Shown here piece by piece: positions 11,265-30,826 of a DNA stretch of 31,669 nucleotides. The stretch comes from Halobacteriales archaeon SW_9_67_25 (GTDB taxonomy: Archaea; Halobacteriota; Halobacteria; Halobacteriales; Haloarculaceae). Position numbers and translations under genes: made by a program. The DNA lies in the NCBI GenBank assembly GCA_003022745.1, contig PXSU01000074.1, forward strand, positions 1-31,669, in the 5' to 3' direction. Below the pieces are notes generated by a model, which searched no databases, was not told the DNA's origin, and saw nothing but the letters and a program-made list of their open reading frames with translations. The stretch's first letter is position 1, and each line of letters opens with the position of its first letter.

Positions 11265-11278
11265 CGGACACCGGAGTC

Positions 11279-11358
11279 ATACTATCGGCCATACTCACGT
11301 GAGGAGTTTCGCCACCCTATCGTGGCGGAATCGCTCACGAAGTTATAGCCGACAGTAT
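11279..11358 (-). repeat. Palindromic element A (family 1)
   Basis: An 80-nt element with 15-bp terminal inverted repeats that match at 13 positions (ATACTATCGGCCATA / TATAGCCGACAGTAT). A second arm CGTGAG/CTCACG and a central hairpin TTTCGCCAC-CCTATC-GTGGCGGAA lie inside. It aligns without gaps to element B (25000-25079) at 59 of 80 positions. Outside the repeats both copies have GTC on the left and CAG on the right. The given strand follows the CTGATAC to GTATGA orientation common to all five elements. It lies between the GCS2-like gene and the DUF4352 lipoprotein. Confidence 0.85.
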
Positions 11359-11589
11359 CAGCCGGGACGACATCAGATTTCTCGGACCATACGATACGAC
11401 CCGATAACTGTTCGACACAATAGGTGGTTGGGAGAACAGGGTCGGTGTCGAGGAAACTGGTCGAGGGCGGACGATACGGATCGGTTCGGTACCGGTCGAG
11501 GACGCACCGCGGGAGGCCTGGATGAACCGTCGAGAGGACGGCTGTGGTATCCAGCGAGTCAACAGTCGTGGCACGTAGACCGCCGTCAG
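11359..11589. other. Intergenic stretch with no recognisable gene
   Basis: No reading frame here looks like a protein on either strand. The lipoprotein promoter begins at its right end. I see no further repeat or RNA structure I can support. Confidence 0.5.
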
Positions 11590-11596
11590 TTTAAAC
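11590..11596 (+). promoter_or_regulatory. TATA box of the DUF4352 lipoprotein gene
   Basis: TTTAAAC, centred about 27 bases upstream of the ATG at 11620. It is among the clearest TATA boxes in the window. Confidence 0.65.
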
Positions 11597-11619
11597 TACA
11601 CGCGCTCTCAGGGACCAGC

Positions 11620-12321
11620 ATGCACAGACGCGCACTGCTGGCGGGGTTGAGCACAGCACTGACGGCTTCACTCGCGGGATGTGGCGGAGACGGGAACGGT
11701 GATGGTGACGGTGGCGGCGAGGAGAGCGGAACACCCGAGTCGGAGTCGGGCACGCCCACGCCGGCGGAGACAGAGACGCCAACGGAGACGGCGACGCCGG
11801 CTGATGCCGAGACACCGACGGAGACACCGACACCCGCCTCCGCCGACGGTGAGACCTCGTTCACCCACGACGTGGGTGAGACGTTTACCGTCGGCGAGGA
11901 GGGGAAACAGGTCACCTACCGGATCATCGAGCTCACCCGGGCCGACCAGATCGGCAGCGAAGTCAACTTCTCCGAGGCCGACGGCACGTACCTCATCGTC
12001 ACGCTCGAAGTGACCAACCCACGAAGCGAGGCTGTAGAGTTCCCGAGACTCAATTTCCGCCTGCTGACCGACGACGGTGCTTGGCAGCGCTTCGACAGAG
12101 AGCCCTCACAGAAGGTGAATTCGGACGACCGCATCGACGTCGAACACATCGGCGACGCGACGATCGAACCGGGGACGTCGGCACTCGGCACGGTGGTGTT
12201 CGACGTCGACCCCGAAAAGAGCCAGCGGCTGTGGATCACGCCCACGGGCGAGGCAGAGATGCCCGAACACTTCGTGCCGGTCGGTGACCTCTCGGAGATC
12301 GAGGAGCTCGGTGGCTACTAG
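11620..12321 (+). CDS. Tat-exported lipoprotein with DUF4352-like domain
   Basis: A 233-residue secreted lipoprotein. The N-terminus MHRRALLAGLSTALTASLAG has the twin-arginine pair and ends in the lipobox LAGC (Cys20), so the mature protein should be lipid-anchored on the outer face. A low-complexity linker of Gly/Asp then Thr/Pro/Glu repeats (about 22-75) is typical of haloarchaeal surface lipoproteins. The C-terminal domain (VGETFTVGEEGKQVTYRIIE, later DGTYLIVTLEVTNPRS) matches the immunoglobulin-like DUF4352 fold. The start at 11620 fits the Tat signal and TATA box; the longer open frame to 11134 is non-coding. It needs Tat export, and the next gene is a broken tatC. Confidence 0.92.
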   Translation: MHRRALLAGLSTALTASLAGCGGDGNGDGDGGGEESGTPESESGTPTPAETETPTETATPADAETPTETPTPASADGETSFTHDVGETFTVGEEGKQVTYRIIELTRADQIGSEVNFSEADGTYLIVTLEVTNPRSEAVEFPRLNFRLLTDDGAWQRFDREPSQKVNSDDRIDVEHIGDATIEPGTSALGTVVFDVDPEKSQRLWITPTGEAEMPEHFVPVGDLSEIEELGGY

Positions 12322-12365
12322 GCCGAGAGGGAAGGCTTACAAGACGGGCCAGCCAAGGCCGCCCG

Positions 12366-13099
12366 ATGGCGGAGGGCAACCCCGAAGAGGGAGCCGACGT
12401 GACCATCCCCGGCGAGGGTCGGGTGGACCCGGAACCGGTTGGCCCGGTCCAGGAAGGGGCTCCCGACGACGAGGAGATGCCCCTCGGGGAACACATCGAG
12501 GAGATGGTCCGCCGGCTCGCGTACGTCATCGTCGTGATGGCGCTGGTCAGCGCCGTCGCCTTCCCGCTTGCAGACCGGCTGATCAACTTCCTGTGGTACT
12601 CGTTTCTCCCGGGACCACCCAGTGACTGCGTCCAGGCGTCCATCGGCGCGGCGCCGGCCCCCGAGACGACGGCCTGTACCCGAATGAGCGGCGGTACTAC
12701 CTCGCGTCGGTGCCGACGAGCCTCGTACTCGCAGCGGTCGGCATCGCCTTTGCATTCTTTCTTATCCTGCCGATCATCTTCATCTACTTCCTGGGCTACT
12801 CACAGCCCGTCGCCGAGATCGCATTCAGCCTCTCGGATACGTTCGACCTCATCCTGCTCATGCTCGGGCTGTTCGCGGTGATCTTCCAGATACCCCTGTT
12901 CATGATGCTCGCGATCATGATGGGCGTCACCTCGCGGCGGTGGCTCGAGGGGCGGCGGCTCCTCTTCTGGGCGGCCTTCGCCGGCATCGCGTTCATCTTC
13001 AGTCCCGATCCCACCGGGATGGCCCCCTTCATCGTCGCCACGACGATGATCCTCCTCTTCGAGTCGACCCTCCTGCTGTTGCGCTGGACCGGCAGGTAA
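12366..13099 (+). pseudogene. tatC: Sec-independent protein translocase TatC, internal deletion and frameshift
   Basis: TatC is the multi-pass membrane receptor of the twin-arginine export system. The first frame (12366 to about 12682) gives an acidic N-tail, the signature MPLGEHIEEMVRRL and the first membrane helix, then the loop ending APAPETTAC. The second frame resumes at GLYPNERRYYLASVPTSLVL (from 12671) and runs to 13099 with the last helices, including SPDPTGMAPFIVATT. Both frames overlap at GGCCTGTACCCG (12671-12682). Compared with TatC proteins, roughly 40 residues with one or two membrane helices between the two parts are missing, and the frame is not kept. A deletion between short direct repeats is the simplest reading. 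As written the gene cannot make TatC. A TATA-like TTACAAG lies near 12338. Confidence 0.88.
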
Positions 13100-13136
13100 A
13101 AGACTTCGGGGCGCTCCACATACACTCCCGAGAAAC

Positions 13137-13778
13137 GTGTCTGCCGACGCAACCGTGCTCCTGGTCCGCCACGGCGAGACGGCCTGGAACCGCGAGAACC
13201 GCGTCCAGGGATGGGCCCCGGTCGGACTCGCGGACAGTGGCCGCGAGCAGGCCCGCGAACTCGGCGCACACCTCGCGTCGGTATACGCTATCGACCGCGT
13301 CGTCGCCTCGGACCTCCGTCGAGCGCGCGAGACCGCAGCCCTGCTCCACGAGGCGGGAGTCCCACCGACCCCGACCTACACCCGGCGCTGGCGCGAGCGG
13401 GACGTCGGTGTCTACCAGGGCCTGTCGAAAGAGCAACTGTTCGGGAGGTATCCCGAATTCAGAGCCACCACCGGCGTGATGGGCGTCCGGTCGCGGCCCG
13501 CGGGTGGTGAGAGCCTGCTCGACCTCCGCGAGCGTGTCCTCGCCGCCTGGGAGGACCTCCTCGCCGGGGCGGACCCGGGGGAGACGGCACTCGTCGTGAC
13601 CCACAGCGGTCCGATATACACGCTACTGGGCCATCTCGCGGGGACCGACCTGCCAAGCGCATTCGTCGAACACTCACAGGACAACTGCGCGCTGACCGAG
13701 GTTCACGTCCCGGGGGACACGAGCGAGTCCGGCGACTGGGGGGCGGCCCGGATCGTGCGCGAGAACGAGCGACCCTAG
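13137..13778 (+). CDS. Histidine phosphatase family protein
   Basis: A 213-residue phosphoglycerate-mutase-like phosphatase. The catalytic LLVRHGETAWN (His of RHG at about residue 12) is at the N-terminus, with the second Arg in SDLRRARETA, the acid in WRERDVG, and the second catalytic His in VVTHSG. Members hydrolyse phosphate from small metabolites such as sugar phosphates or alpha-ribazole phosphate; the substrate cannot be read from sequence. The start is GTG at 13137. Its TAG stop overlaps the stop of the convergent ccdA gene in the palindrome CTAG (13775-13778). Confidence 0.94.
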   Translation: MSADATVLLVRHGETAWNRENRVQGWAPVGLADSGREQARELGAHLASVYAIDRVVASDLRRARETAALLHEAGVPPTPTYTRRWRERDVGVYQGLSKEQLFGRYPEFRATTGVMGVRSRPAGGESLLDLRERVLAAWEDLLAGADPGETALVVTHSGPIYTLLGHLAGTDLPSAFVEHSQDNCALTEVHVPGDTSESGDWGAARIVRENERP

Positions 13779-14467
13779 ATGTACGAGAGCCCGTCGAAAA
13801 CGAACAGGAACCAGTAGATCTGGACGAGTCCGGCGACGACGAGCGCCCCGCCGGCCAGCCGCGTGACGAGGCGGGTGTTCGACGTGACACGTTGCAGGAG
13901 GGTGTCTTTCCCGAGCGCGGTGAGTAGGGTTACCCCCACGAGCAGGACGACCATCCCGGCGGCGTAGGCGCCGAAGGCCGTGAACGCCTGCGCCGGGCCA
14001 GTCAGAGCAAGCGAGGCGACCCCGACGAACAGCGGGCCGGTACAGCCCGCGGCGGCGGCCGCGTAGACGACGCCAAAGCCGAAGAATCCGGCCGGACCCC
14101 GCCGGCGCTCCGGCAACTGGACGTGGGCGAACGCGCCCGTGGTCTTCCCGCTGAGCATCACGAGCCCCAGCACGATGAGGACGGCCCCGGCGCCCACCTC
14201 GAGGACGGCGATGTCGCCGAGGAACTGCGTCCCGACGACGAACACGACGGCCGCGAGCGTCCCGAAGACGGCCAGAAACCCCAGGCTCGTGATCAGCGAT
14301 ACGACCACGGCCCGGCGCATACGCGCGGGCCAGGTGTCGGAAACGGACTCGTCGTCAGCTCCGAGGAAGTACGCGATGTACCCGGGCAACAGGGGGAACG
14401 CACAGGGCGCGAAGAACGTGGCCGTCCCCAGCCCGAACGCGAACGTCGCGAGGCCGATGTCAACCAC
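13775..14467 (-). CDS. ccdA: CcdA/DsbD-type transmembrane thiol-redox protein
   Basis: A 230-residue protein with about six membrane helices. It carries one cysteine in TFFAPCAFPLLPGY in the first helix and the second in AAAAGCTGPLF in the middle, the spacing typical of CcdA. CcdA carries electrons from cytoplasmic thioredoxin across the membrane to extracytoplasmic thioredoxin-like proteins, in cytochrome c maturation or disulfide reduction. The start is GTG at 14467. The TlpA-like lipoprotein gene lies 60 bases upstream on the same strand, a classical pairing. It ends convergent with the histidine phosphatase gene. Confidence 0.92.
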   Translation of the reverse strand: MVDIGLATFAFGLGTATFFAPCAFPLLPGYIAYFLGADDESVSDTWPARMRRAVVVSLITSLGFLAVFGTLAAVVFVVGTQFLGDIAVLEVGAGAVLIVLGLVMLSGKTTGAFAHVQLPERRRGPAGFFGFGVVYAAAAAGCTGPLFVGVASLALTGPAQAFTAFGAYAAGMVVLLVGVTLLTALGKDTLLQRVTSNTRLVTRLAGGALVVAGLVQIYWFLFVFDGLSYI

Positions 14468-14527
14468 GCGCTGTCACCTCCACATTCGTCGCTTCGCGTG
14501 ACACGGCAGTGGCCGTGACCCGGCCGG

Positions 14528-15124
14528 TCATCCCCCTGCCTCCTCGATTCGTTCGATGATGTCCCCGGCGGGAGAGAGCCCGCTGTGGCGCCAGACCTCC
14601 TCGCCGTCGGCGTCCAGGAGAACCATCGTCGGGATGCGCGTGACGTCGTACTCCTGGAACGCCTCGAGGCGGGTATCCTGTGCGACGGGCCAGGTACCCT
14701 CGTACTCGACCCAGAACTCCCGTATCAACCCGGCGTCTTCCTCCTGGCTCATCGACAGTATGTGCAGGTCCGGGTGTTCGGACTGGACGGTCCGCAACTC
14801 GGCCATCTGGGGCTTGCAGGGGGCACACCAGGTCGCGAAGAAATCGAGCAACGCGGCCTCGCCATGTGGCTTGACGGCGACCTGCCCGCCGGGTGACCCC
14901 TCCACGTCGAGTGTCTCCAGTCGGAGGCCCGCCGGCGTCGGGGTGGGCGTGGCTGCCTCCGCACCGCTATCGCCGTCCCCACTGCCATCGGTGCCGTCGC
15001 CGCCCGCCGGTCCGCCATCGCCGAGACAGCCAGCCACCCCGCCCGTGGCGGTGACGCCAGCCAGCCCGACCGCCGCCCGGGAGAGAAACCGGCGACGGGT
15101 CGGAGCGTCCCGAGACTCGTCCAT
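14528..15124 (-). CDS. TlpA/ResA-like thioredoxin-fold Tat lipoprotein
   Basis: A 198-residue extracytoplasmic redoxin. The N-terminus has a Tat signal (TRRRFLSRAAVGLAG) and a lipobox ending GGVAGC. A Gly/Asp/Ser and Thr/Pro linker follows, then a thioredoxin fold with the active-site WCAPC (about residue 100) and the cis-proline in TRIPTMVLLDADG. It probably receives electrons from CcdA encoded just downstream and reduces disulfides, for instance in apocytochrome c or copper-site assembly (inference). The ATG at 15124 fits the signal and a TATA-like GGCTTTTGT 27 bases upstream. Confidence 0.94.
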   Translation of the reverse strand: MDESRDAPTRRRFLSRAAVGLAGVTATGGVAGCLGDGGPAGGDGTDGSGDGDSGAEAATPTPTPAGLRLETLDVEGSPGGQVAVKPHGEAALLDFFATWCAPCKPQMAELRTVQSEHPDLHILSMSQEEDAGLIREFWVEYEGTWPVAQDTRLEAFQEYDVTRIPTMVLLDADGEEVWRHSGLSPAGDIIERIEEAGG

Positions 15125-15146
15125 GTCAGGTCTATGTGCGAGGAGG

Positions 15147-15155
15147 ACAAAAGCC
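15147..15155 (-). promoter_or_regulatory. TATA-like box of the tlpA-like gene
   Basis: GGCTTTTGT on the minus strand, centred about 27 bases before the ATG at 15124. The bases from here to element C at 15333 hold no gene I can support. Confidence 0.45.
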
Positions 15156-15332
15156 GTACTGCGCCTGTGGGTAGTGGTTACACAACCTCACTGCCGGCAG
15201 CAAACGGCCTGCGTGCTCGCGACGGTACTGCTGTGGGTCGAGGGCGCCGTCGCGGCCGGAGAGTCGACGCCAGCGGGGATCTGTCGGCTAGGCTCGGGAC
15301 CGCGACCCAACGGCCCGGGTGGTGGGTGTCCC

Positions 15333-15414
15333 ATACGGATTGCTGTCGCTGTTTTCCAGGCCGACCGCTCGCTGTCCTGCGGTCGATCCGGTACTGAACG
15401 ACAGCAATCCGTAT
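15333..15414 (-). repeat. Palindromic element C (family 2)
   Basis: An 82-nt element with perfect 16-bp terminal inverted repeats (ATACGGATTGCTGTCG / CGACAGCAATCCGTAT). An inner arm CGACCG/CGGTCG lies around CTCGCTGTCCTG. It is about 89 percent identical to element D (17924-18003), with one two-base gap. Where C and D differ inside the terminal repeats, both arms have changed together. It starts 10 bases after the stop of the zinc-ribbon gene, in that gene's direction. Confidence 0.9.
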
Positions 15415-15424
15415 CACGGACAGC

Positions 15425-15574
15425 CTACGTCTCGCGTGCCCGGCGCATCGCCACCTCGGCGATACCGACGTTCGCGGTGCAGTTCGGACACGCGAGCACC
15501 TCGCCGGAGTCGACGGCGAAGACGCGGACGAACTGCGCCGAGACCGGACTGTTGCAGTGGTCACACGAGTCCAT
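15425..15574 (-). CDS. Zinc-ribbon micro-protein (DUF7563-like), 49 aa
   Basis: A 49-residue protein, short but convincing: MDSCDHCNSPVSAQFVRVF, then VLACPNCTANVGI, with two CxxC knuckles 28 residues apart that should bind one zinc ion. Small two-CxxC proteins with a central FxRVF are common in haloarchaea and I recall one such group as DUF7563; the exact family is not certain. Function unknown. Unlike most genes here it has a Shine-Dalgarno-like AGGAGGG seven bases or so before the ATG. A T-rich TATA-like stretch lies further upstream (about 15640), so the mRNA probably has a leader. Element C follows after 10 bases. Confidence 0.75.
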   Translation of the reverse strand: MDSCDHCNSPVSAQFVRVFAVDSGEVLACPNCTANVGIAEVAMRRARET

Positions 15575-15579
15575 GGCTT

Positions 15580-15586
15580 CCCTCCT
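15580..15586 (-). promoter_or_regulatory. Shine-Dalgarno-like site of the zinc-ribbon gene
   Basis: AGGAGGG on the minus strand, ending five bases before the ATG at 15574. It supports that start and sets this gene apart from its leaderless neighbours. Confidence 0.55.
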
Positions 15587-15688
15587 GTGGATCGGTCATC
15601 TTGCGGGCTCCCGGGTGGAAGCGGGTATCCCACATAAAAAGAGATTTTCCGAGTTTTCACCCAATTTCGTCCAACATCTGCGCCCCGC

Positions 15689-16663
15689 TCACCGCTCCAG
15701 CGGCCACCGCCCGTCGCCGTCGAGGCGTTCGGCGACACCCTCGGCCAGGCAGTACTCGCGACCGGTCCGGACGACGTCACCGGCCTCGACTAGGTGGTCG
15801 AGGTGTGCCGCGGCCTCGCCCGGGCCGTGGAGGACGTGAATCCCGTCGAGAGCGCCGAAGAGGTCGGCGCTGACCGTCCAGGCGTCACAGGGCCCGCGCC
15901 GGCGGAGGGCGTCCAGCACGCGCCAGGCGCGCTCTTCGTGGTGCTCGATGATGGTCTCGGCACGGGTGCCGGGGTCCTCGATGGGGTCGCGGTGGCCCGG
16001 CCACGCGCGGTCGTAGTCCGCCGCGACGATTCCGTCGAGCGTCCGCAGGTACTTCGCCAGCGCGTCCGCGACGCGCACGTCCGCACCACCCACGTTGGGC
16101 GTGTACTTCGGGAGGAGCGCATCGCCCGAGAGCACTATTCCCTCGCACTCGAACAGACAGAGCCCGGCGGCGTGGCCGGGCGCGTGGACGGCTTCGATGG
16201 GCGCCCCGTCGACGCTGAACGTCTCGCCGCCAGTGAAGGTGGTCACGTCCGGCCACGGGCCGAGCGTGTCCGGGTCGACGAGTGTCTCACGGAGCGTCGC
16301 ACGCTCGGCCTCGGGCATCCCCCAGTCCGCGAACCGCTCTTCCATCGTCGCGTCGAGAGCGTCCCAGGCGTCGGCGTCGCCAGCGACCAGCGCCGCGTCG
16401 GCCTCGTGGACGTACACGGGTGCCCCGCTTGCGGCCTGGATGGCCCCGGCCAGGCCGGCGTGGTCGGCGTGCCAGTGTGTCAGAAACACCCTGTCGACGT
16501 CCCCGAACTCGACGCCGTGTCGGCCGAGGCTGGCCGCGAGCTGCTCCCGGGTCCGGTCCGTCCAGTCGCCGGTGTCGACCAGCACCGTCTCCGGGCCGTC
16601 CGCGAAGAGGTAGGCGTTGTTGTCGCCCTCGAAGGCTGCGTTCGACAGCGGGATGCGTTCCAT
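15689..16663 (-). CDS. MBL-fold hydrolase with C-terminal winged-helix-like domain
   Basis: A 324-residue protein. The metal site LTHWHADHAG lies near residue 65, with later ligands in VHAPGHAAG, LSGDALLP and AWPGHRDPI. The C-terminal 90 residues (RRRGPCDAWTVSADLFG, later HLDHLVEAGDVVRTG) look like the winged-helix tail found in LACTB2-type MBL proteins. LACTB2 is an RNA endonuclease, but many relatives are thioesterase-like, so the substrate is open. The ATG at 16663 matches the family start (IPLSNAAFEGDNNAYLF). It is divergent from the HAD gene. Confidence 0.9.
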   Translation of the reverse strand: MERIPLSNAAFEGDNNAYLFADGPETVLVDTGDWTDRTREQLAASLGRHGVEFGDVDRVFLTHWHADHAGLAGAIQAASGAPVYVHEADAALVAGDADAWDALDATMEERFADWGMPEAERATLRETLVDPDTLGPWPDVTTFTGGETFSVDGAPIEAVHAPGHAAGLCLFECEGIVLSGDALLPKYTPNVGGADVRVADALAKYLRTLDGIVAADYDRAWPGHRDPIEDPGTRAETIIEHHEERAWRVLDALRRRGPCDAWTVSADLFGALDGIHVLHGPGEAAAHLDHLVEAGDVVRTGREYCLAEGVAERLDGDGRWPLER

Positions 16664-16766
16664 GTCCCTTCCTCGTCGCCCGGGTGTATCACCGTACCGG
16701 AGTCGTCGTCGGGTCGTCCGTGGGGGACCCGCGTCGGCCCCGGCATCGACCGACCGAACCACCGGG

Positions 16767-16774
16767 GTTATACC
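16767..16774 (+). promoter_or_regulatory. TATA box of the HAD phosphatase gene
   Basis: GTTATACC, centred about 27 bases before the ATG at 16797. Confidence 0.55.
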
Positions 16775-16796
16775 GTCCCAGTCCTCCGTGTCGGGC

Positions 16797-17582
16797 ATGA
16801 CCTTCGCCGGCGCTATCGTCGACCTCGACGGGACTGTCTACCGCGGCGACGACCTTCTCCCCGGGACGACGGGCGCGGTCGACCGGCTCCGGACCGCAGG
16901 GCTGGACCTCCTGTTCTTCTCGAACAACCCGACCGAGAGCGGCGAGGCGTACGTCGACCGGCTCCGCAGACTGGGAGTGGACGCCCGGGCGGACGAGGCC
17001 TGCTCGGCCGGCGACGTCACCACCGAGTACCTGCTGGAAACACACCCCGGGGACGCGATCATGCTCGTCGGGTCACCGGGGTTGCGCGAGCAGTTCGAGG
17101 CGGCGGGCCTGTCGCTAACTGACGACCCCGCGGCGACGGACGTCCTCGTGGGCTCCTGGACGGACGAGTTCGGCTACGACGACATGCTCGCTGCGCTCCG
17201 GGCCGTCGACGAGGGGACGGCGTTTCTCGGGACCGACCCGGACCGCACCGTCCCGGCCGAGGCCGGGGTGATTCCGGGCTCGGGGGCCGTGGTGGGTGCC
17301 CTCTCGGCGACACTGGGTCGTGACCCGGACGCGATGCTGGGCAAACCTTCCGAGGCCGCACTGCGGTTCGCGCTCGACCGGCTGGGCGTCGACCCGGCCG
17401 CGTGTCTCGTCGTCGGCGACCGCCTCGAAACCGACATCGCGCTCGGCGAGCGTGCCGGGATGACGACGGCCCTCGTCCGCACGGGCGTGACCGGCGAGGC
17501 GGAGCTGGCCGCGAGCGACGTCGACCCCGACTACGTCCTCGACAGCCTCGCCGATATCGGGACGGTCCTCGACGGCGCGTGA
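16797..17582 (+). CDS. HAD-IIA family phosphatase (NagD/PGP-like)
   Basis: A 261-residue HAD-superfamily hydrolase. Motif I is VDLDGTVYRGD (nucleophile Asp at about residue 9), motif II is FFSNNPT, the motif III lysine is in MLGKPSEAA, and motif IV is VVGDRLETDIALG. The class IIA cap domain lies between motifs II and III. Relatives dephosphorylate sugar phosphates, phosphoglycolate or 4-nitrophenyl phosphate; the substrate here is unknown. The ATG at 16797 is set by motif I and the TATA box. The longer open frame from 16617 overlaps the divergent MBL gene and is not coding. Confidence 0.94.
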   Translation: MTFAGAIVDLDGTVYRGDDLLPGTTGAVDRLRTAGLDLLFFSNNPTESGEAYVDRLRRLGVDARADEACSAGDVTTEYLLETHPGDAIMLVGSPGLREQFEAAGLSLTDDPAATDVLVGSWTDEFGYDDMLAALRAVDEGTAFLGTDPDRTVPAEAGVIPGSGAVVGALSATLGRDPDAMLGKPSEAALRFALDRLGVDPAACLVVGDRLETDIALGERAGMTTALVRTGVTGEAELAASDVDPDYVLDSLADIGTVLDGA

Positions 17583-17639
17583 CGCTGTCGGCCGGCGTCT
17601 CATAGCCGATAGTGATAGGCCGCTGGTGTCTCCGAGTGG

Positions 17640-17648
17640 TTTTAGTAA
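17640..17648 (+). promoter_or_regulatory. TATA box of the MTH865-like gene
   Basis: TTTTAGTAA, centred about 26 bases before the ATG at 17670. Confidence 0.55.
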
Positions 17649-17669
17649 GTGTGCCTCGACACCCGACGC

Positions 17670-17924
17670 ATGGTCGACAGCGACGACCTCAGATCGCAGT
17701 TCGTCGAGGCCTTCGAGGGTGCCGACTACCCGATAACCAGCCCGATGGACCTGGTGCCGGCGCTGCCGGACGGCCCGTCGACGTCGTTCGAATCGGGCGA
17801 GTTCGCGATGACGGCGATGGAGTTGAACACGAAACTCGACGGGGACTTCCCCTACGAGGACGTCGACTCCTTCGTCGACGAACTCATGGAGCAACTCGAG
17901 GCACAGGACCTGCTGGGGGACTGA
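17670..17924 (+). CDS. MTH865-like family protein
   Basis: An 84-residue protein recognisable from FVEAFEGADYPITSPMDLVP and ESGEFAMTAMELNTKL as the MTH865 family of small archaeal helical proteins (an EF-hand-like fold without proven calcium binding). Function unknown. The ATG at 17670 is supported by a TATA box 26 bases upstream. The TGA stop is unusual: its last base is the first base of palindromic element D, so the element end (CTGATAC) supplies the stop codon. Confidence 0.9.
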   Translation: MVDSDDLRSQFVEAFEGADYPITSPMDLVPALPDGPSTSFESGEFAMTAMELNTKLDGDFPYEDVDSFVDELMEQLEAQDLLGD

Positions 17925-18003
17925 TACGGATTGCTGTAGCCGTTTTCCAGGTCGACCGCGCTGTCCTGCGGTCGATCCAGCAATGAACTACAGCAATCCG
18001 TAT
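17924..18003 (+). repeat. Palindromic element D (family 2)
   Basis: An 80-nt element with perfect 16-bp terminal inverted repeats (ATACGGATTGCTGTAG / CTACAGCAATCCGTAT). The inner arm TCGACCG/CGGTCGA is extended by one pair relative to element C. Against C, the fifteenth base of the left repeat is A instead of C and the matching base of the right repeat is T instead of G, so pairing is kept. The TGA at its left end stops the MTH865-like gene. The ATG at its right end (18002) opens a frame that runs into the DUF2391-like gene. Confidence 0.9.
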
Positions 18004-18037
18004 GATCCCTCCCGGGCCACGCCGAAGGGGGCCGGTG

Positions 18038-18589: not shown

Positions 18590-18677
18590 CCGACCATCGG
18601 TGTCCTCCCGGAGTACCGGCAGCCCACCCCGTAGCCGGAAGCAAAGAAAGAAAGCCATCGCTCACCAACACCCGAAC

Positions 18678-19439: not shown

Positions 19440-19593
19440 CACCGTATCGGCGGTCGCGCACGGCTCGGACACGAGAAACGGACCGGTATCGTCGAGTTAA
19501 TGTGGCGTTTCCATCCGTCTTTAGCTAAGTGACGAACCCTGTGACCGCAGCGGCTTTCGAGGTTTTTTGCGAAAGAAGTGAGGAGGTGTCGCT

Positions 19594-19760
19594 ATGCACA
19601 CAAACCCCTCCTCAGATGTAATTGAACGTCGGCTCACTAATTTTCTTCCCCCTGAAGCACTCGAAGACCACGCCGAAGCTGTCGGCGTGGTCGAACGAGA
19701 GGGGAAACTTCAGATCCCGCCACTTGTCTGGTTACTCGCGTTCGGCTTCGCCCCCGCAGC
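19594..19760 (+). mobile_element. 5' fragment of an IS4-family (ISH8-type) transposase gene
   Basis: About 54 residues (VIERRLTNFLPPEALEDHAE, then VGVVEREGKLQIPPLVW, then LAFGFA) match the N-terminus of haloarchaeal IS4/ISH8-type transposases as I know them. The match stops at about 19757. The catalytic DDE part and the right end are missing. The leader (GGTTTTTTGCGAAAGAAG, then GAGGAGGTGTCGCT with a Shine-Dalgarno-like GAGGAGG) also looks like an insertion-sequence leader. The left end may be near CGTCTTTAGCTAAGTGACG (19517-19535), but I could not confirm an inverted repeat. Base composition is clearly less GC-rich than the flanks. Confidence 0.7.
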
Positions 19761-20033: not shown

Positions 20034-20140
20034 ATGGCTGTTTTCCGCCTATCCGTGATCTCATCTTCAAAACCCATCGGTGCGTCCGGTCGGCCCGCGT
20101 GTTTCCACTGGTCACGAGCAGAACCCGTGCAAGAAACGCC

Positions 20141-20356: not shown

Positions 20357-20382
20357 CGTATGTTCGACCACGCGTGTCTGCC

Positions 20383-20391
20383 AGTTAAGTG
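20383..20391 (-). promoter_or_regulatory. TATA-like box of the DUF2283-like gene
   Basis: CACTTAACT on the minus strand, about 30 bases before the ATG at 20356. This placement decides between the two possible starts. Confidence 0.45.
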
Positions 20392-20976: not shown

Positions 20977-20998
20977 AGCTGTCGTCGGGGCCGCTCCC

Positions 20999-21008: not shown

Positions 21009-21027
21009 GACGCGGTCGGACAGCGTC

Positions 21028-22511: not shown

Positions 22512-22603
22512 CGCCCCCGCTTGGACGGGTCGGCGCTTGTGGGTTTCGGCTCCGTCCACACGTCGAAGAACACCGGCCAATCGCGCTCGAATCGCCCGTC
22601 CTC

Positions 22604-23287: not shown

Positions 23288-23309
23288 CGTCACCTGACGG
23301 CAGTCCGTC

Positions 23310-24338
23310 TCACCCGACGACCGCCAGCCCGCGCCCGACCTGCGATCCGTAGCTTGTGGGCCACTCGACATCCAGCGCCGCCCAGGACTCGGCCGCGTCG
23401 GTGCTCCGGAACAGACCGCGGTTCGTGAGTGCGTAGAACTCGCCCGGTGTGGCGGCCGCCAGCACGGCCCGGACGGTTCCCTCGGGGTCCGGCAGGCCGT
23501 CCATCGCAGTCCGCCAGCGATCGTCCACTCCGTCCTCGCGTCGGTAGACGTACGACTGTGCGGTGTCGGGCCAGTGTGCCCGGCGGGCACCCGACGCGGC
23601 GGAGACGACCACGACCCCGGGGTCGCCGGGATCGACCGCCAGTCCCCAGACGTACCGGTGGTCGAGTCCCCGGTCGGGGTACGTCCAGGTCCCACCGCAG
23701 TCGGGGGACTCGGCGTAGCCATCCCCCGCCGCGACGTAGACGCGACACGGTGCCTCGGGGTGGGTCGCGAGCGTGTGGTTGTCCCGACGGGCGCCCTCGG
23801 GGTGGGGCTCCCACGTGTCGCCGCCGTCGACGGTCCGGACGAACGCGCCGGCCTCGATAGCGACGTAAACGTGTGCCGGGTCGTGGGGGTTGACCGCGAG
23901 CCAGCGGACGTGGTGGGTGTGGGGCCGGGGCGGGAACGACCACCGCTCCGCCGAGGGCAGGTCGGTCAGTCCGCCACACTGTGCCCAGCTCTCGCCGCCG
24001 TCGAACGAGCGGGAGACGGCGCTGGGTTCGGTCCCGGCCCAGACGGTGTCGGGGTCGTGCGGGCTGACCGTCACGGCGGTCACGCGGTCGTCGAACGCGC
24101 CCACGGCCTCCCACGTGTGCCCGCCGTCCGTGCTCCGCAGGAGTCCCGACTCGACGGTGCCAGCGAAGACCCGACCCGGCGTGTCGGGCGATGCGGCGAC
24201 GCACTCGAGATCACGGCCGACCAGCGTCTCGGTTGCAGTCCACCCGTCCTCGGTCCCGACTCCGTCGTCGCCGTGGGCCGTCTCCTCTCCGCGGACCACG
24301 AGGATGCGGTCTTCGAGTGCCGCATAGACGGTGGCCAT
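23310..24338 (-). CDS. BNR/sortilin-like beta-propeller protein
   Basis: A 342-residue repeat protein. At least five Asp-box (BNR) repeats are visible as S-x-DGG-x-(T/S)W: RSTDGGHTW, RSFDGGESW, RTVDGGDTW, ESPDCGGTW and the degenerate RSTDAAESW. Each is followed by a beta-sheet blade with A-x-(D/H)P-x-(D/N)-P. No signal peptide or membrane segment, so it is probably cytoplasmic. Such propellers act as binding scaffolds or glycosidase-like enzymes; no catalytic residues can be assigned. ATG at 24338 (ATVYAALEDRILVV) is preferred over the longer frame. Its stop faces the PAC2 stop. Confidence 0.9.
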   Translation of the reverse strand: MATVYAALEDRILVVRGEETAHGDDGVGTEDGWTATETLVGRDLECVAASPDTPGRVFAGTVESGLLRSTDGGHTWEAVGAFDDRVTAVTVSPHDPDTVWAGTEPSAVSRSFDGGESWAQCGGLTDLPSAERWSFPPRPHTHHVRWLAVNPHDPAHVYVAIEAGAFVRTVDGGDTWEPHPEGARRDNHTLATHPEAPCRVYVAAGDGYAESPDCGGTWTYPDRGLDHRYVWGLAVDPGDPGVVVVSAASGARRAHWPDTAQSYVYRREDGVDDRWRTAMDGLPDPEGTVRAVLAAATPGEFYALTNRGLFRSTDAAESWAALDVEWPTSYGSQVGRGLAVVG

Positions 24339-24431
24339 GACTGTCCCGTATGTGCCCACGCACAAGAAGGCTGTCGCGGGTACGGGATGGGTTTCCTCGG
24401 GGCCAGCGAGCCCCTGGTCGATACTGCCCGC

Positions 24432-24911
24432 TCAACGACGCCGCCACCGCCGCCCCACCACCTGTACTCCCTTCCCGCCGGCCGCACCGAACGCCAGCAG
24501 GCCGACCGTGTAGAAGATGGCGAGGTTCCGCGAGATGACATCCTGCGGGACGCCACGCTGGTCTACGCCCTGGTAGACGCCGAGCGCGGCCAGGACGGTG
24601 AACGCGACGAACACGCCCACGACACCGAGAACCCAGCCGTAGGACGCAGCAGAGACGCTCCGGGTGGCGGCGAAGGCGCCGACCATCGCCAGGGCCACGA
24701 GGAGGACGTACAGCATCGCGGTCGAAACGACCAGCGCCGCGGCGATCCAGACGACGACCAGCGCGCCGACGATTGCGGCGACGTTCGTCTCGTAGTCCCC
24801 GTACCCGAGCCTGGCGGCCAGGTGCGCGAGACCGACCGAGACCACGCCCGCGACGACCGCCGGGATGGTCGTCAACAGGACGAGAAAGCCGCCGGGGTCG
24901 AAGTTGGTCAC
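24432..24911 (-). CDS. Hypothetical membrane protein, about 4-5 helices
   Basis: I do not recognise the family. From GTG 24911 the protein is 159 residues: a short TNFDPGG start, then hydrophobic helices around FLVLLTTIPAVVAGVVSVGL, VGALVVVWIAAALVV, MLYVLLVALAMVGAF, WVLGVVGVFVAFTVLAAL and YTVGLLAFGAAGG, and an Arg-rich cytoplasmic end. The frame is open further to an ATG at 25001, adding 30 Pro/Arg-rich residues. That ATG belongs to the end of palindromic element B, so the shorter start seems more natural, though the longer form cannot be excluded. It follows the histidine kinase on the same strand. Confidence 0.7.
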   Translation of the reverse strand: MTNFDPGGFLVLLTTIPAVVAGVVSVGLAHLAARLGYGDYETNVAAIVGALVVVWIAAALVVSTAMLYVLLVALAMVGAFAATRSVSAASYGWVLGVVGVFVAFTVLAALGVYQGVDQRGVPQDVISRNLAIFYTVGLLAFGAAGGKGVQVVGRRWRRR

Positions 24912-24999
24912 GCTGGCGGCCTCCGGGTCATACCGGGTGTTGTCGCTGCCCGGAATAGGTCTTCTGGCGGGCCCGGAACCGGGTCTCGCGTGTGCGGTC

Positions 25000-25079
25000 A
25001 TACTGACGGCTATACCTACGTGAAGATATTCGACCCCCCGTAGGGTCGAAATTGCTCACGGGCTTATAGCCGCCAGTAT
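25000..25079 (-). repeat. Palindromic element B (family 1)
   Basis: An 80-nt element with 15-bp terminal inverted repeats matching at 14 positions (ATACTGACGGCTATA / TATAGCCGCCAGTAT). It has the arm CGTGA/TCACG and a perfect central hairpin TTCGACCC-CCCGTA-GGGTCGAA. In element A the same hairpin is TTCGCCAC/GTGGCGGAA, so two stem pairs have changed together. On the minus strand its CTGATAC end carries the TGA stop of the histidine kinase frame, and its GTATGA end carries the ATG at 25001 of the next open frame. Confidence 0.88.
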
Positions 25080-26711
25080 CAGTCCGCCCCGGCTTCGGCG
25101 ACCCCGGGCGCGGCCGGTTCGGATTCGGGTTTAGTTCCTGCCGGCAGATCGAGCGTGACGACGGTCCCGTCCGGTTCCCTGTCCTCGAAGGAGAGGTCGC
25201 CCCCGAGCCGGACGACACCCCACTTGACCGCCCAGAGGCCGAGGCCGCTGCCGTGTTCGAGGGAATCCTCGTCGCCGGCCTCGATGACTGCCCGTTCGTA
25301 CTCGGGGATTCCGGGGCCGTTGTCCGCAACGGACAGGCAGACGCTGTCGTCGGTCACGCGGGCGCTGACGGTGACGACCGGCGTCGGTGCGTCGTTGTGG
25401 ACCAGCGCGTTCTCGACGAGATTGTCGAGGACTGCGACCAGCACGCGGTCGTTGACCGACAGCGTCACGGACTCGTCGATGTCGACCGAGAGCGTGGCGT
25501 CCGGGTAGGCCGACCGGTACTCCCCGAGGACCCGTTCGGCGACGTCGGCGAGGGGAATCTCGTCGTCCGGTGTCGGCGTGACGGCCATCATCCGTTCGAC
25601 CTGCCGTGCGCGCTCGCTCGTCGACATGAGGTCGTCAGCCGAGGTGAGGATCGACTCGGCCGGGTCGCTGTACTCGTGGTCGCCATCCGCGATGAGTTCC
25701 GCGCGTCCAATGATGTTTCCCATCTCGTTGCGGAGGTTGTGCCGGAGCACGCGGTTGAGGACCGAGAGCCGCTGTGAGCGCACGCGTTCCCGCGTGACGT
25801 CGGTGAGGACGACCGCGTGTCCCGGCTGGCGGTCGAACCGGTCGCGGACCGGAGAAATCGAGGCCTCGAAGTGACGGCTCCCCCCGGGCACCGCCAGTTC
25901 GACGGTCTCGCTGTCTCGCAACGTGTCGAGACCGGCACCGACACACTCGGCGAGGGGTCCGGACGTGACGGCCTCGGAGTCGGCGCCGAACGTGTCGGCA
26001 GCGGTCTCGTTGAGTTTGACGACCCGACGGTCGCGGTCGACGACGATTACGGCGTCGTCCAGGTCGGCAAGCACCGTCTCCGGGCCGAGCGTCCCCGCAG
26101 CAGGGGCCGCCTCGAAGATGCCCCCGCGGGTCACCGCGAACCCTACGGCGGCCAGGCTCAGGGTGTAGCCGGTGGCGTTGAACCCGATGATCGTGTCGAT
26201 GGCGACGCGACTGGCGACGCCCGGCGTCAGGACGTAGGCCAGCCAGGGCCAGGCCACCCGCGTAGTAGAGGCCGACCTGTTCGGCCAGCGCGGCGAACCC
26301 GAGCAGCGAGGGCAGCGACGGCGCCATCGGTCCGCCACCGGCCATCGAGCCCGCCATCTCCGGCGAGACGATCAGCGCGGTCCCGCCCACGAGCGCCACG
26401 GCAGGGGGAACGAGGAAGGCGACCTTCCGTGCCGGCGAGGCCAGGTGGGACAGGCCGTAGTACTCGACGACGAACCACGTGAACGCACACGGGATGGCGA
26501 GGAAGGTGGTCAGCCAGACGACCGACAGCGTCGTCAGATCCCCAGCGGCCAGCGCGTCGGCGACCGCCAGCGCCCCGACGACACCGACGAACAGCACGAA
26601 CGGCCGGAGCGCCTGCGTCTCGCGGGTCCGGTCGACCCACGCCGCCGTCCCGAGCAACGCGAGTCCCGCCGTCCCCATCACGGCACGAAAGACCATCAGC
26701 GTCTCGACCAT
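25079..26711 (-). pseudogene. Histidine kinase with 7TM sensor and PAS domain, split by internal deletion
   Basis: A membrane-bound sensor kinase in two frames. The first (ATG 26711 to about 26245) gives five membrane helices of an N-terminal 7TM sensor domain, ending EQVGLYYAGGLAL. The second (from about 26256 to 25079) resumes with WPWLAYVLTPGVASR and a last helix. It then has a PAS domain (DDAVIVVDRDRRVVKLNET), the phospho-acceptor box LRHNLRNEMGNIIG, and the ATPase boxes LVENALVHND, ADNGPGIP and GSGLGLWAVKWG. About one helix and its loop are missing and the frame changes at TGGCCCTGG-type sequence (26241-26256), as in tatC. The kinase half alone is complete. No response regulator is adjacent. 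The stop lies in element B. Confidence 0.88.
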
Positions 26712-26892
26712 CAGCCGGCACCCCGTTTCGTAGCGCACCGTCGTCTCCGTTGCAGTCTGTACATACTGGATTCGACCGGTTGCCACCACAAAGAGTATTT
26801 TCCCAAATCCGTTCATGTTCCGGCCCGATTCCGTTCGGCTCTGGCCGGATTTCCGGTGCTGTTGTGAACGTCTGCGCGTCTGGACGGCCCGA
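26712..26892. other. Intergenic region between uvrA and the histidine kinase gene
   Basis: About 180 bases between the kinase start and the uvrA stop. It contains an AT-rich stretch (AAAATACTC on the minus strand, near 26795) that may be the kinase promoter. No gene seen. Confidence 0.4.
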
Positions 26893-29800
26893 TCAGTCGT
26901 CGCCGGTGCCCGTCGCCTGCTCGCCGTCGGTCTCCGTGGCGCCGTCGCGGTCGATGTCGGCAGTCGCCTCGTCGTCGGCCACGGAGGCCACGGGTTCGCG
27001 GTCGGATCGGGGACCCTCCAGGTCCACGGCGGGCAGCAGGTCCCGGAGATAGCGACCGGTGTAGGATTCCTCGGTGCGCGCGACCGCCTCGGGCGTCCCG
27101 GTGGCGACGACCTCGCCGCCCTCCTCGCCGCCCTCGGGGCCCAGGTCGACGATGTGGTCGGCGTTCTTCACGAGGTCGAGTTCGTGTTCGATGACGACGA
27201 CGGTGTTGCCCTCCTCGGCCAGCCGGTGGAGCACGTCGATGAGTTTGCGCTCGTCCTCGGGGTGGAGCCCGGTGGTGGGCTCGTCGAGCAGGTACAGCGT
27301 CTCGCCGGTATCCTTCTTTCCGAGTTCCTCGGCGAGTTTGACCCGCTGGGCCTCCCCGCCCGAGAGGGTCGTCGAGGGCTGGCCCAGACGCATGTACCCG
27401 AGTCCGACGTCCTGCAGCAGTTTCAGCCGGCGGCGCAGCTGGCCGTGGCTCTCGAAAAAGTCGTAGGCCTCCTCGACGCTCATGCCCAGGACGTCCGCGA
27501 TGGTCTTGCCCCGGTAGGTCACGTCCAGCGTCTCGTCGTTGTACCGGGCGCCGTCACACTCCTCGCAGGGGACGTACACGTCCGAGAGGAAGTTCATCTC
27601 GATTTTCACGCGGCCCTGCCCGCCACAGGACTCACACCGGCCGCCCTTGACGTTGAACGAGAACCGCCCCTTCTCGTAGCCCCGCTGCTGTGCGAGGTCC
27701 GTCTCCGCGAACAGTTCGCGCACGTAGTCGAAGACGTTCGTGTAGGTCGCGGGGTTCGAGCGCGGGGTGCGCCCGATGGGCGACTGGTCTATCAGCCGGA
27801 CGGTTTCGATGGCGTCGTGGTCGACGGCGTCGTGGTCGCCGGGGTCGACGTCCGTGTTGTCGTGCATCTCGCGGGCCAGCGTCTTGTACAGTACCTCGTG
27901 GATCAGCGTCGACTTGCCCGACCCCGAGACGCCCGTGACCGCAGTAAAGCAGCCCACCGGCAGGCGAACGTCGATGTCCTTCAGATTGTGCTGGCGGGCA
28001 CCCTGAATGGTGACGTAACTGTCCGAACCCGCCTGCTGGTCTGGCTCGCGGCTCGCGGGTCCGGTGTCCCCGCTCGCTCCGTCCGATCCCTCCCGTTGGT
28101 CCGGCTCGCGCCGCGTTTCGGGAACCGGAATCGTCCGCTCGCCAGCGAGGTACTCGCCCGTGATAGAGTCCTCGGCCGCGACGACGTCCTCTATGGGCCC
28201 GTTGACGACGACCTCGCCACCCCGCTTGCCGGGCCCGGGCCCCATGTCGACGATGTTGTCGGCCCGGCGCATCGTCTCGGTGTCGTGTTCGACCACCAGC
28301 AGCGTGTTGCCCAGGTCGCGCAGCTCCTCCAGGGTGTCGAGCAGGCGGTCGTTATCGCGCTGGTGGAGGCCGATAGAGGGTTCGTCCAGGACGTACAGCA
28401 CGCCCACCAGCCCGGAACCGATCTGGGTCGCCAGACGGATGCGCTGGCTCTCCCCGCCCGACAGCGTCGAGGCCTCGCGGTCCAGCGTCAGGTAGTCCAG
28501 CCCCACCTCGCACATGAACCCCAGGCGGGCGCGGATCTCCTTGAGGATCTCCTCGGCGATTTTCGTCTCCCGCTCGTCCATCGTCGCCTCCATGTCCTCG
28601 AAGTGCTCTAAGGCGTCCCCGATGGACATCTCGTTGACCTCGGTGATGGCGGTGCCGTCGACCAGCACCGCGCGGGATTCGGCTTTCAGCCGGGTGCCCT
28701 CGCAGGCCGGACAGGTCGTGACCGCCATGTACTCCTCGATGTGCTCGCGGGCGCGGTCGCTGTCGGTCTCGACGTGCCGGCGCTCCAGGTTGGGGATGAC
28801 ACCCTCGAACCGTTCGGTCTTCTCGCGGGTGCCGTTCTTCGTGGTCCACTCGAAGTGGACAACGTCGTCGGTACCCCAGAGAAACTGCCGCCGGATCTCG
28901 GGATCCAGTTCCTCGAAGGGGGTCTCCAGCGACACGCCGAAGTGCTCTGCGACGTTGTCCAGTTGTCGCGAGTAGTAGGTACGGTTGTAGCTCCAGGGCT
29001 CGAAGACGTGTTTGAGGGGTTTCGATGGGTCCTGGACCACGAGGCTCTCGTCGACCTCCTTCGTCTCGCCGATGCCCTCACACTCCGGGCAGGCGCCGTG
29101 GGGGCTGTTGAACGAGAAAGAGCGGGTCTCGATCTCGCTGATGTCGATGTGGCAGTGCGTACAGGCCAACTCCTCCGAGAACTCCACGACGAGACGGCCC
29201 GCTTCGTCGCTCCCGTCGCCGCCGTCTTCGGCGTCCGAGAGGTCGCCCGTCGAGCGGGCACGGGAACCGCCGACCTCGACCTCGCCGTCGGGGAAGATGA
29301 CCTTCAGGAGGCCGTCGACCTCTCCGAGGGCGGTCTCGACGGAGTCCGTGATGCGCGAGCGGGCGTCCTCGCTGATCCGCACGCGGTCGACCACCACGTC
29401 GACGGTGTGGTCGTAGTTCTCGTCGAGGTCGGGGCGGTCGACGGTGAGGTCGTACGGTTCGCCATCGGCCTCGATGCGGGTGTATCCCTCACCGACGAGG
29501 TCGTCGAACAGTTCCTCGAAGGCTCCCTTCTGGTCGCGGACCACCGGCGCACAGATCTTCGCCCGCGTGCCCTCGGGGACTTCCAGCAGGCGTCGGACCA
29601 TCTGCTGGGCGCTCTGTTCGCCCACCTCGCGGCCACACTCCGGGCAGTGGGGCGTGCCGACGCGTGCATGGAGGAGGCGCAGATAGTCGTGCAGTTCCGT
29701 GACCGTCCCGACGGTCGAGCGGGGGTTGTTGGCGGCGTTTTTCTGGTCGATAGAGATGGCGGGCGAAAGCCCCTCGACGTTCTCGACCTGCGGTTTGTCC

Positions 29801-30009
29801 ATCTGGCCCAGAAAATTCCGGGCGTACGCCGAGAGGGACTCGATGTACCGTCGCTGTCCTTCGGCGTAGATGGTCTCGAACGCGAGCGAGGACTTGCCCG
29901 ACCCCGACAGGCCCGTCACGACCGTCAGTTCCTCGCGGGGCACCCGGACGTCGACGTCCTTGAGGTTGTGTTCCTCGGCCCCGCGTACCTCGATGTAGTC
30001 GCGGCTCAT
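26893..30009 (-). CDS. uvrA: Excinuclease ABC subunit A
   Basis: UvrA finds DNA lesions in nucleotide excision repair and loads UvrB. The 1038-residue protein is complete with two ABC ATPase modules: Walker A GLSGSGKSS (about residue 33) and GVSGSGKST, signatures TLSGGESQRI and TLSGGEAQRV, Walker B VLDEPSIGLH and LLDEPTTGLH. Zinc sites are ACTHC with ACPEC, and RCESCGGQGRV with PCEEC. It carries an acidic linker between the modules with a doubled REPDQ-x-x-GSD motif, and an acidic C-terminal tail (DRDGATETDGEQATGTGDD). Both are typical of haloarchaea. uvrB and uvrC are not in the window. ATG at 30009 matches the family start (YIEVRGAEEHNLKDVDV). Confidence 0.98.
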   Translation of the reverse strand: MSRDYIEVRGAEEHNLKDVDVRVPREELTVVTGLSGSGKSSLAFETIYAEGQRRYIESLSAYARNFLGQMDKPQVENVEGLSPAISIDQKNAANNPRSTVGTVTELHDYLRLLHARVGTPHCPECGREVGEQSAQQMVRRLLEVPEGTRAKICAPVVRDQKGAFEELFDDLVGEGYTRIEADGEPYDLTVDRPDLDENYDHTVDVVVDRVRISEDARSRITDSVETALGEVDGLLKVIFPDGEVEVGGSRARSTGDLSDAEDGGDGSDEAGRLVVEFSEELACTHCHIDISEIETRSFSFNSPHGACPECEGIGETKEVDESLVVQDPSKPLKHVFEPWSYNRTYYSRQLDNVAEHFGVSLETPFEELDPEIRRQFLWGTDDVVHFEWTTKNGTREKTERFEGVIPNLERRHVETDSDRAREHIEEYMAVTTCPACEGTRLKAESRAVLVDGTAITEVNEMSIGDALEHFEDMEATMDERETKIAEEILKEIRARLGFMCEVGLDYLTLDREASTLSGGESQRIRLATQIGSGLVGVLYVLDEPSIGLHQRDNDRLLDTLEELRDLGNTLLVVEHDTETMRRADNIVDMGPGPGKRGGEVVVNGPIEDVVAAEDSITGEYLAGERTIPVPETRREPDQREGSDGASGDTGPASREPDQQAGSDSYVTIQGARQHNLKDIDVRLPVGCFTAVTGVSGSGKSTLIHEVLYKTLAREMHDNTDVDPGDHDAVDHDAIETVRLIDQSPIGRTPRSNPATYTNVFDYVRELFAETDLAQQRGYEKGRFSFNVKGGRCESCGGQGRVKIEMNFLSDVYVPCEECDGARYNDETLDVTYRGKTIADVLGMSVEEAYDFFESHGQLRRRLKLLQDVGLGYMRLGQPSTTLSGGEAQRVKLAEELGKKDTGETLYLLDEPTTGLHPEDERKLIDVLHRLAEEGNTVVVIEHELDLVKNADHIVDLGPEGGEEGGEVVATGTPEAVARTEESYTGRYLRDLLPAVDLEGPRSDREPVASVADDEATADIDRDGATETDGEQATGTGDD

Positions 30010-30085
30010 CTATCCGCTGCCAGGGAAGGAACCGGGGAAACCCTGTCGGTTCTGTACCGGCCGGTCGGCGCCCGCGCTACGACAG

Positions 30086-30095
30086 TTTATAAATA
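30086..30095 (+). promoter_or_regulatory. Strong TATA box of the LURP-one gene
   Basis: TTTATAAATA, centred about 27 bases before the ATG at 30117; the best TATA box in the window. Confidence 0.75.
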
Positions 30096-30116
30096 GAAAC
30101 GGCTGAAACGGACCCC

Positions 30117-30704
30117 ATGGGAACGGAACCACCCACGATCGACGTTCCGGGAGTCGACCTGACGGACGACAGCTACACCGTCGAGCAGAGTTTCATCCGG
30201 AACAAGTACCGTGCCGAGGACGCAAACGGGAACACCGTCCTTCGCGGGAAACAGAAACTGTTCAAGCTGAAAGAGGAGTTCCCGTTCGTCGACGGGCAGG
30301 GCAACGACGCGTTCACGGTCAAAGCAGGGGGCATCGTCGACGTGGCGGGCAACTACGTCATCACCGACGCCGCGACCGGTCGGGAAGTCGTCGTCCTCGA
30401 CAACGATTTTTCCATCTTCCAGGACACCTGGCATATCAGGGACGGCGAAACCGGACGGAAACTCGCGGAGATCAACTCCCGCGGTGCGCTGGTGACGCTG
30501 GCCCGGGCGTACGTCCCGATCGTCGGTCCGCTCATCCCCCACAAGTACGAGATTACCGACGCCGACGGGCGACACGTCGGTCGAATCGACGGGCAACTCT
30601 CGCTCCGTGACCGCTACCGGATCGTGATCGACGACGCAAGTACCGTGCCCCGGGAAGCCATCGTGGCTGCGGCGATGGTCATCGACGCGATCCAGGGGAA
30701 CTGA
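30117..30704 (+). CDS. LURP-one-related (Tubby C-like) family protein
   Basis: A 195-residue protein with the LURP-one/Tubby-C-like beta-barrel pattern: YTVEQSFIRNKYRAEDANGN, then LRGKQKLFKLKEEFPF, DAATGREVVVLDN and the central hydrophobic helix near VTLARAYVPIVGP. Members lie in the scramblase/Tubby superfamily and may bind membranes; no role is known in archaea. A strong promoter suggests good expression. Its TGA stop (30702-30704) overlaps the first base of palindromic element E, as in the MTH865-like gene. Confidence 0.88.
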   Translation: MGTEPPTIDVPGVDLTDDSYTVEQSFIRNKYRAEDANGNTVLRGKQKLFKLKEEFPFVDGQGNDAFTVKAGGIVDVAGNYVITDAATGREVVVLDNDFSIFQDTWHIRDGETGRKLAEINSRGALVTLARAYVPIVGPLIPHKYEITDADGRHVGRIDGQLSLRDRYRIVIDDASTVPREAIVAAAMVIDAIQGN

Positions 30705-30805
30705 TAGGTATTAGCGTAGGAAGTCACAGGTTCTCTGCATGCGAATCGAAACACCGTGACCGGCCGGAGATCACTGTGTCTCTGGTCGGCTACGCCAATC
30801 CCCAT
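30704..30805 (+). repeat. Palindromic element E (diverged relative of family 2)
   Basis: A 102-nt imperfect palindrome. Its ends ATAGGTATTAGCGTAG and CTACGCCAATCCCCAT are inverted repeats of each other. They match element D's ends in 13 of 18 and 14 of 19 positions, counting the flanking TG and GAC. The inner part differs from C and D and has its own arm (CACAG/CTGTG with TCTC/GAGA). The left end again supplies the upstream stop codon (CTGATAG). It lies between convergent genes and could also act as a bidirectional terminator. Confidence 0.55.
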
Positions 30806-30826
30806 GACAGGGCAAGAAGGGCCAGA

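Follow-up and report, generated by a model that had tools for sequence, protein, structure and literature searches.

Positions 1 to 31,669 of contig PXSU01000074.1 of Halobacteriales archaeon SW_9_67_25 (assembly GCA_003022745.1), called the window below, contain five palindromic elements, A to E. We conclude that these are very probably non-coding transposable elements resembling miniature inverted-repeat transposable elements (MITEs), with cores of mostly 78–80 nt (100 nt for E), which are inserted by a transposase acting in trans. The equal flanks, a nested copy, empty sites and the use of both orientations lead to this reading. As in MITEs, the elements are short, non-coding and present in many copies with terminal inverted repeats, and they carry a target duplication of fixed length, which is seen both in the equal triplets around most copies and at the empty sites.

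The five elements lie, to the base or nearly so, where an earlier note on the window had placed them; no strand is assigned to their cores. The core of element D (family 1) spans 17925..18002 between TGA triplets at 17922-17924 and 18003-18005, and the first of these is the stop codon of an MTH865-like gene (17670..17924, plus strand; Pfam PF07747, E = 2e-28). Element E, of a diverged family, has its 100-nt core at 30705..30804 between TGA at 30702-30704 and TGA at 30805-30807, the former being the stop of a LURP-one-related gene (30117..30704, plus strand; PF04525, E = 4.8e-6). Element B (family 2; core 25001..25078) is flanked by TCA at 24998-25000 and 25079-25081, and the latter is, on the minus strand, the TGA stop of a histidine kinase gene whose 3' part is called at 25079..26257 on the minus strand (PF02518, histidine-kinase ATPase domain, E = 1.6e-17). 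The gene calls bear out that the genes upstream of B, D and E end in frame at the flanking TGA. Element A (family 2; core 11280..11357) has TCA at 11277-11279 and 11358-11360, and its core starts 15 nt past the stop of the gene at 9696-11264, not on it. The flanks of element C (family 1; core 15334..15413) are unequal by one base, CCA at 15331-15333 and TCA at 15414-15416; its core is 11 nt from a stop, and again not on it.

In general, the core runs from TA to TA, and the flanks are a duplicated TGA or TCA, rarely TAA. In stretches of three genomes (G000, G001 and G060), 166 elements were detected; 48 without a recognisable tip were set aside, and the 118 with both tips were analysed. The flanking triplets are equal in 107 of these (55/65, 33/34 and 19/19, respectively), being TGA or TCA in 104 copies and TAA in 3. 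The triplet is independent of the orientation of the element, with 23 plus and 27 minus copies at TGA and 27 of each at TCA (Fisher p = 0.70). In a nested copy (L008), a family-1 element lies within a family-2 element, and a TGA that is single in other family-2 copies is double here. Two elements in G060 (L178, G060:C1:466000-470500, at about 2050-2215) stand head to tail with one TCA common to both; the triplet duplicated by one was apparently used by the next as its target.

The flanks of 34 in-frame, equal-flank copies (24 from the own genome and 10 from G060) were joined and compared with relatives, with 40 candidates scored per genome. A junction-spanning alignment to an element-free place was obtained for 14, and 12 of these empty sites hold the same triplet once (7 for G060 copies and 5 for the own genome), at roughly 82–100% identity and in two cases with small gaps near the junction. 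One G060 copy (segment 875500, offset 1869) gives a 100% match to the empty site in G061, and the own-genome site C152 aligned only with a deletion. The other 20 copies gave no spanning alignment, in part perhaps because of the 40 scored candidates per genome. Element C has an empty site in G001, a genome of the same genus, with 93.7% identity over 111 nt (L232), and none was found in G001 for A, B or D among the candidates scored. The triplet was present once before insertion and is now a 3-bp target duplication. The stop codons are therefore older than the elements and were not supplied by them. The earlier note had held that the elements provide the stop of the gene before them; the stop does coincide with the flank in B, D and E, but it predates the insertion. 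Relatives with the same stop and no element are what a target duplication predicts, and they refute this part of the proposal only.

The elements occur in both orientations, and sites are filled in one species and empty in a close one. These differences, together with near-identical copies in G060, point to recent movement. The stop of the LURP-one gene, which carries E in the window, carries a family-1 copy in the G001 relative. Similarly, G060 and G061 have different types of element at the stop of a gene that we take to encode an ABC-transporter ATPase, and G063 has no element there. Such reuse of a stop is most simply explained by independent insertions at a good target, and it may also reflect the replacement of one element by another. 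On plasmid pNMAG01 of Natrialba magadii, the stop of an annotated FAD-dependent oxidoreductase gene is the TGA of an element.

The repeat families of the five elements are represented by many copies in the own genome, a 1.79-Mb draft that is 57.5% complete, and in its relatives. By BLAST, family 1 is found at at least 40 places in the own genome (best 40 of 71 candidates scored). Family 2 is found there at at least about 33 places spanning at least 70 of 80 bases, together with shorter pieces (40 of 43 candidates scored), and this count is a lower bound, since element A of the window is absent from its matches. The family-1 tip pattern, with up to 2 mismatches, gives 56 forward and 61 reverse matches in the own genome, while its reversed control gives 1 and 0, so that with 117 tips against 1 the elements are more than a chance pattern. 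Element E has one clear further copy in the own genome, at 82% over 90 nt. Of the 146 genomes and 22 genera examined in the taxonomic family, 31 genomes and 15 genera carry family 1, and 27 genomes and 13 genera carry family 2; at most 6 places were scored per genome in these searches, and the BLAST copy counts are lower bounds. Haloarcula, Natronomonas, Natronorubrum, Natrialba, Halococcus, Halapricum and Halomicrobium are among the named carriers. A contig scan matched at least 81 stretches (26 archaeal and 2 bacterial among the 28 listed), and a scan of viral contigs gave 30 candidate stretches. The densest of eight genomes is G138, with 246 element tips in 2.5 Mb; TAGTGATTATTGT are among the tips listed.

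The predicted structure extends over nearly the whole element. The 42 listed cores measure 76–81 nt and have mirrored tips. Family 1 is predicted to fold symmetrically: an outer stem of 15 bp leads through inner loops of 7 nt to an inner stem of 16 bp, which is closed by an end loop of 4 nt. In a non-random selection of 27 of the 31 80-nt cores, aligned without gaps, 96.5% of the cells of the outer stem and 83.8% of those of the inner stem are paired, and some inner pairs are broken in up to 10 of the 27 copies. Pairs have changed on both sides at 9 of 15 outer and 13 of 16 inner positions (22 of 31 in total), and all 500 shuffles fell short on each of the five measures, although this control leaves the kinship among the copies in place. 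In copies such as L281 and L324, the inner stem is kept as a stem with a different sequence. Judged from the alignment, a hairpin of 80 nt in two parts persists across Halobacteria, and its predicted stems show compensatory changes. A matching outer stem is expected, because any transposase binding both ends needs it. That the inner stem, too, is conserved as a stem suggests that either the fold is important or the palindromes are corrected against themselves. On the first of these, the elements would form a Halobacteria-wide hairpin transposable element whose predicted 80-nt fold, beyond the tips, is recognised by a transposase encoded by the host or by the element, and which inserts at GNC-TSA-GNC, with gene ends as nearly harmless sites. 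We consider this form of the proposal rather doubtful.

Why are the elements found at stop codons so often? With in-frame stops scored by a home-made gene caller, 27 of 65, 15 of 34 and 10 of 19 copies in G000, G001 and G060 lie at the in-frame stop of a gene. When the elements were excised, the genes re-called and only TGA/TCA duplications kept, in-frame stops held 24/43, 10/18 and 10/15 of the non-coding insertions (44/76 pooled); a further 10, 14 and 3 insertions lie in called coding sequence, and some of these may be errors of the caller. The share of stops expected from the available non-coding TGA/TCA sites is 0.195, 0.152 and 0.179. Weighting by the bases at −1 and +1 raises it to 0.278, 0.345 and 0.353, with p = 0.0001, 0.054 and 0.013. 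When the genomes are pooled, in-frame stops are used at 137 per 1000 sites. The rate is 31 in the 40 nt that follow a stop and 29 in the 60 nt that precede a start, compared with 16 for the remaining intergenic sites and 3.9 for coding sequence. Coding insertions number 27 against 67.5 expected, and coding sequence is plausibly avoided through selection.

Of the 104 copies with a TGA/TCA duplication, 55 are not at in-frame stops, and these show a palindromic preference around TSA, with G at −3, C at −1, G at +1 and C at +3. The motif GNC-TSA-GNC, taken from the 55 non-stop insertions, already predicts 41% on stops, compared with 58% observed (44/76, p = 0.0021); a motif learnt from all insertions predicts 46% (p = 0.024). 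Strong stop targeting was therefore set aside as an explanation, since the plain TGA/TCA null of 15–20% overstated the effect and the wider palindromic motif expects 41%. The target motif accounts for most of the stop effect, since genes commonly end in GNC-TGA, which fits it. An excess of in-frame TGA, on which the rule of the earlier note depended, is nevertheless seen against either expectation, and a modest part of it remains beyond the motif. This remainder might be read as a direct preference for stop codons in their own right, through, for example, a translation-coupled or RNA-guided step. We give this little credence: the higher use of in-frame stops than of other non-coding sites and the residual excess speak for it, whereas the prediction from the motif and the many copies away from stops speak against it. 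The weight that we give it was raised slightly by the 41 intergenic non-stop copies with both neighbours called in the three genomes, 21 of which lie between divergent genes, so that avoidance of promoters is not seen. Copies between divergent genes could affect promoters.

We suggest that MITE-like insertion proceeds through a transposase, probably of the DDE type, that would cut a TNA target, nearly always TGA or TCA, with a 3-bp stagger. The enzyme would be carried elsewhere or no longer be present. When an element inserts at a TGA stop, the triplet on the gene side remains the stop codon, and the protein is unchanged; stops are often used since gene ends in GNC-TGA match the target. In outline, the earlier note was right to see a small non-autonomous element fitting between stop and start codons. 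This rule, however, is not a property of the element but comes mostly from the 3-bp duplication at TGA/TCA and from a motif that matches haloarchaeal gene ends. The motif and the duplication together make insertion at a stop codon seamless, and a mobile element can in this way spread in compact archaeal genomes at low cost.

The start-codon side of the rule has a similar origin. An intact core ends in TA, and a TGA-oriented copy therefore reads GTA-TGA (or has another base before TA), so that the TA tip rebuilds an ATG before the second TGA. The ATG thus falls 77 nt after the stop in 78-nt cores, and this holds for any TGA-oriented copy with intact ends. Of 49 in-frame, equal-flank copies, 4, including D of the window, have this ATG in the frame of the next called gene, and the called start is that very ATG in 2 of the 4; B is not counted among them, since the gene calls used there are without its downstream gene, which other gene calls include. 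The ATG that the earlier note observed at this distance from the stop, in the reading frame of the next gene, is real but is a by-product of the end of the core. Where genes overlap by ATGA, the ATG at the element end would keep both codons intact. In annotation, it can pass for a gene start.

If the elements were structured intercistronic RNA, the hairpins would work at the mRNA level, as 3'-end elements or in processing or stabilisation, and this would be why they stand after stops. The predicted RNA hairpins are strong, at about −38 to −44 kcal/mol for A–D and −35 kcal/mol for E, both stems show compensatory changes, and many copies directly follow a stop. However, the elements point the same way as the gene in 29 cases and the opposite way in 20, about half of the intergenic non-stop copies counted above (21/41) lie between divergent genes, and sites are filled or empty between close species. 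Furthermore, no known Rfam family is found at the elements; the only match in the window, at 19653-19718, is weak (E = 0.95) and lies away from them. We consider this explanation, which the earlier note had offered as an alternative, improbable.

A relationship to repetitive extragenic palindromic (REP) sequences or PATEs, moved single-stranded by an IS200/IS605-type (Y1) transposase, with a terminal TGA owned by the element and no duplication, would agree with the hairpin form, small size and high copy number, and with GTAG REP ends that often give flanking genes the stop TAG (PMC3733652), but is highly improbable, because both flanks change together (TGA/TGA, TCA/TCA, TAA/TAA) independently of element orientation and the empty sites hold one triplet. 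The use of both orientations at TGA and at TCA also argues against the strand-specific IS200/IS605 mechanism.

Among described systems, the MITE-like elements of the window are most readily compared with those of Haloquadratum (PMC3119063). The short elements described there are likewise mostly non-coding, with terminal inverted repeats, often a target duplication, and movement presumably in trans. The present elements differ in that no transposon with a common terminal repeat was found in a limited search, in that nearly the whole element is a hairpin and in that the target motif coincides with stops. SMR-A and SMR-B of Haloquadratum walsbyi are small, transposase-free repeats whose mobiliser is not known; they resemble our elements in their length of about 80–110 bp and in inverted terminal repeats unrelated to known transposons, and SMR-A has many copies. 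In PMC3119063, no target duplication is reported for SMRs, and SMR-A inserts into PATE and IS605-type elements, whereas the present elements duplicate 3 bp and lie mostly between genes. PATEs and IS200/IS605 derivatives have neither terminal inverted repeats nor duplications, and our elements have both. GTAG/CGTC REPs (PMC3733652) are also palindromes that lie outside genes, and their ends, too, can fall on a stop codon, but they are of 20–40 bp with a GTAG or CGTC tag at one end, while the present elements are of about 80 nt with symmetric tips and a target duplication. Their target duplication sets the elements apart from SMRs; size, tips and duplication together distinguish them from REPs and PATEs. 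No description of them was found in the literature searched, which lay mostly outside subscription journals.

What moves such abundant, recently active elements when no matching transposon is found? A 3-bp TNA-like target duplication is made by IS1031-type members of the IS5 family and by eukaryotic PIF/Harbinger MITEs. Unlike IS5-type ends, the present tips begin with TA. An autonomous partner was not found in a profile search that covered PF01609 and PF13586 and not other transposase families, including Y1. Single tips did not lead to one either: in 20 stretches at such tips, the listed tips start elements whose second tip differs or has decayed, and most of the 19 single or mismatched tips in the own genome stand beside truncated or decayed elements. 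When plasmids were queried with short tips, family 1 yielded more elements and family 2 no haloarchaeal match, and no annotated transposase was seen in the nine plasmid regions viewed, whose gene table is incomplete by its own account. A perfect family-1 tip in L263 (JAHENO010000145, 1686-1800) is followed by unrelated sequence with no partner tip near; the remaining tips there belong to a separate element near 3383-3462. The lone tip may be a truncated copy or one end of something longer.

Several observations weigh against the reading of the elements as MITE-like. PF13586 has no match over the cut-off in eight genomes, and PF01609 has 52 matches in five, with no locus among the 30 examined (up to 900 bp on either side) having TA-type ends and a TNA duplication around the transposase. 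Moreover, G138, with all its tips, has only two partial PF01609 matches. At the empty sites, one in-frame G060 site (segment 1776000, offset 2787) reads CGA and not TGA in G063, one of the 12 sites reads TGA in G061 and TAG in G063, and the empty site of element C in G001 reads TCG, where the window has CCA and TCA. The in-frame copies in G001 dropped from 15 to 10 after excision and re-calling, and the stop excess left after motif correction (58% vs 41%) rests on the home-made gene caller. Avoidance of promoters was rejected as the cause of that excess, because sites before starts are used more than other intergenic sites (29 vs 16 per 1000) and because of the copies between divergent genes. 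Finally, a simple MITE model does not require the inner stem to persist by compensatory change, which raises the question of why it is kept.

Two genes of the window appear to have interrupted frames. The frame of the histidine kinase gene at whose stop B lies is apparently broken near 26257 (window 26200-26720, minus strand), and an N-terminal membrane-like segment (MVETLMVFRAVMGTAG...) is found in another frame upstream of the called gene at 25079-26257. This break may be an assembly error or a real frameshift. The gene at 12366-13099, which presumably encodes a TatC-like protein, shows an apparent frame change near 12680-12690.

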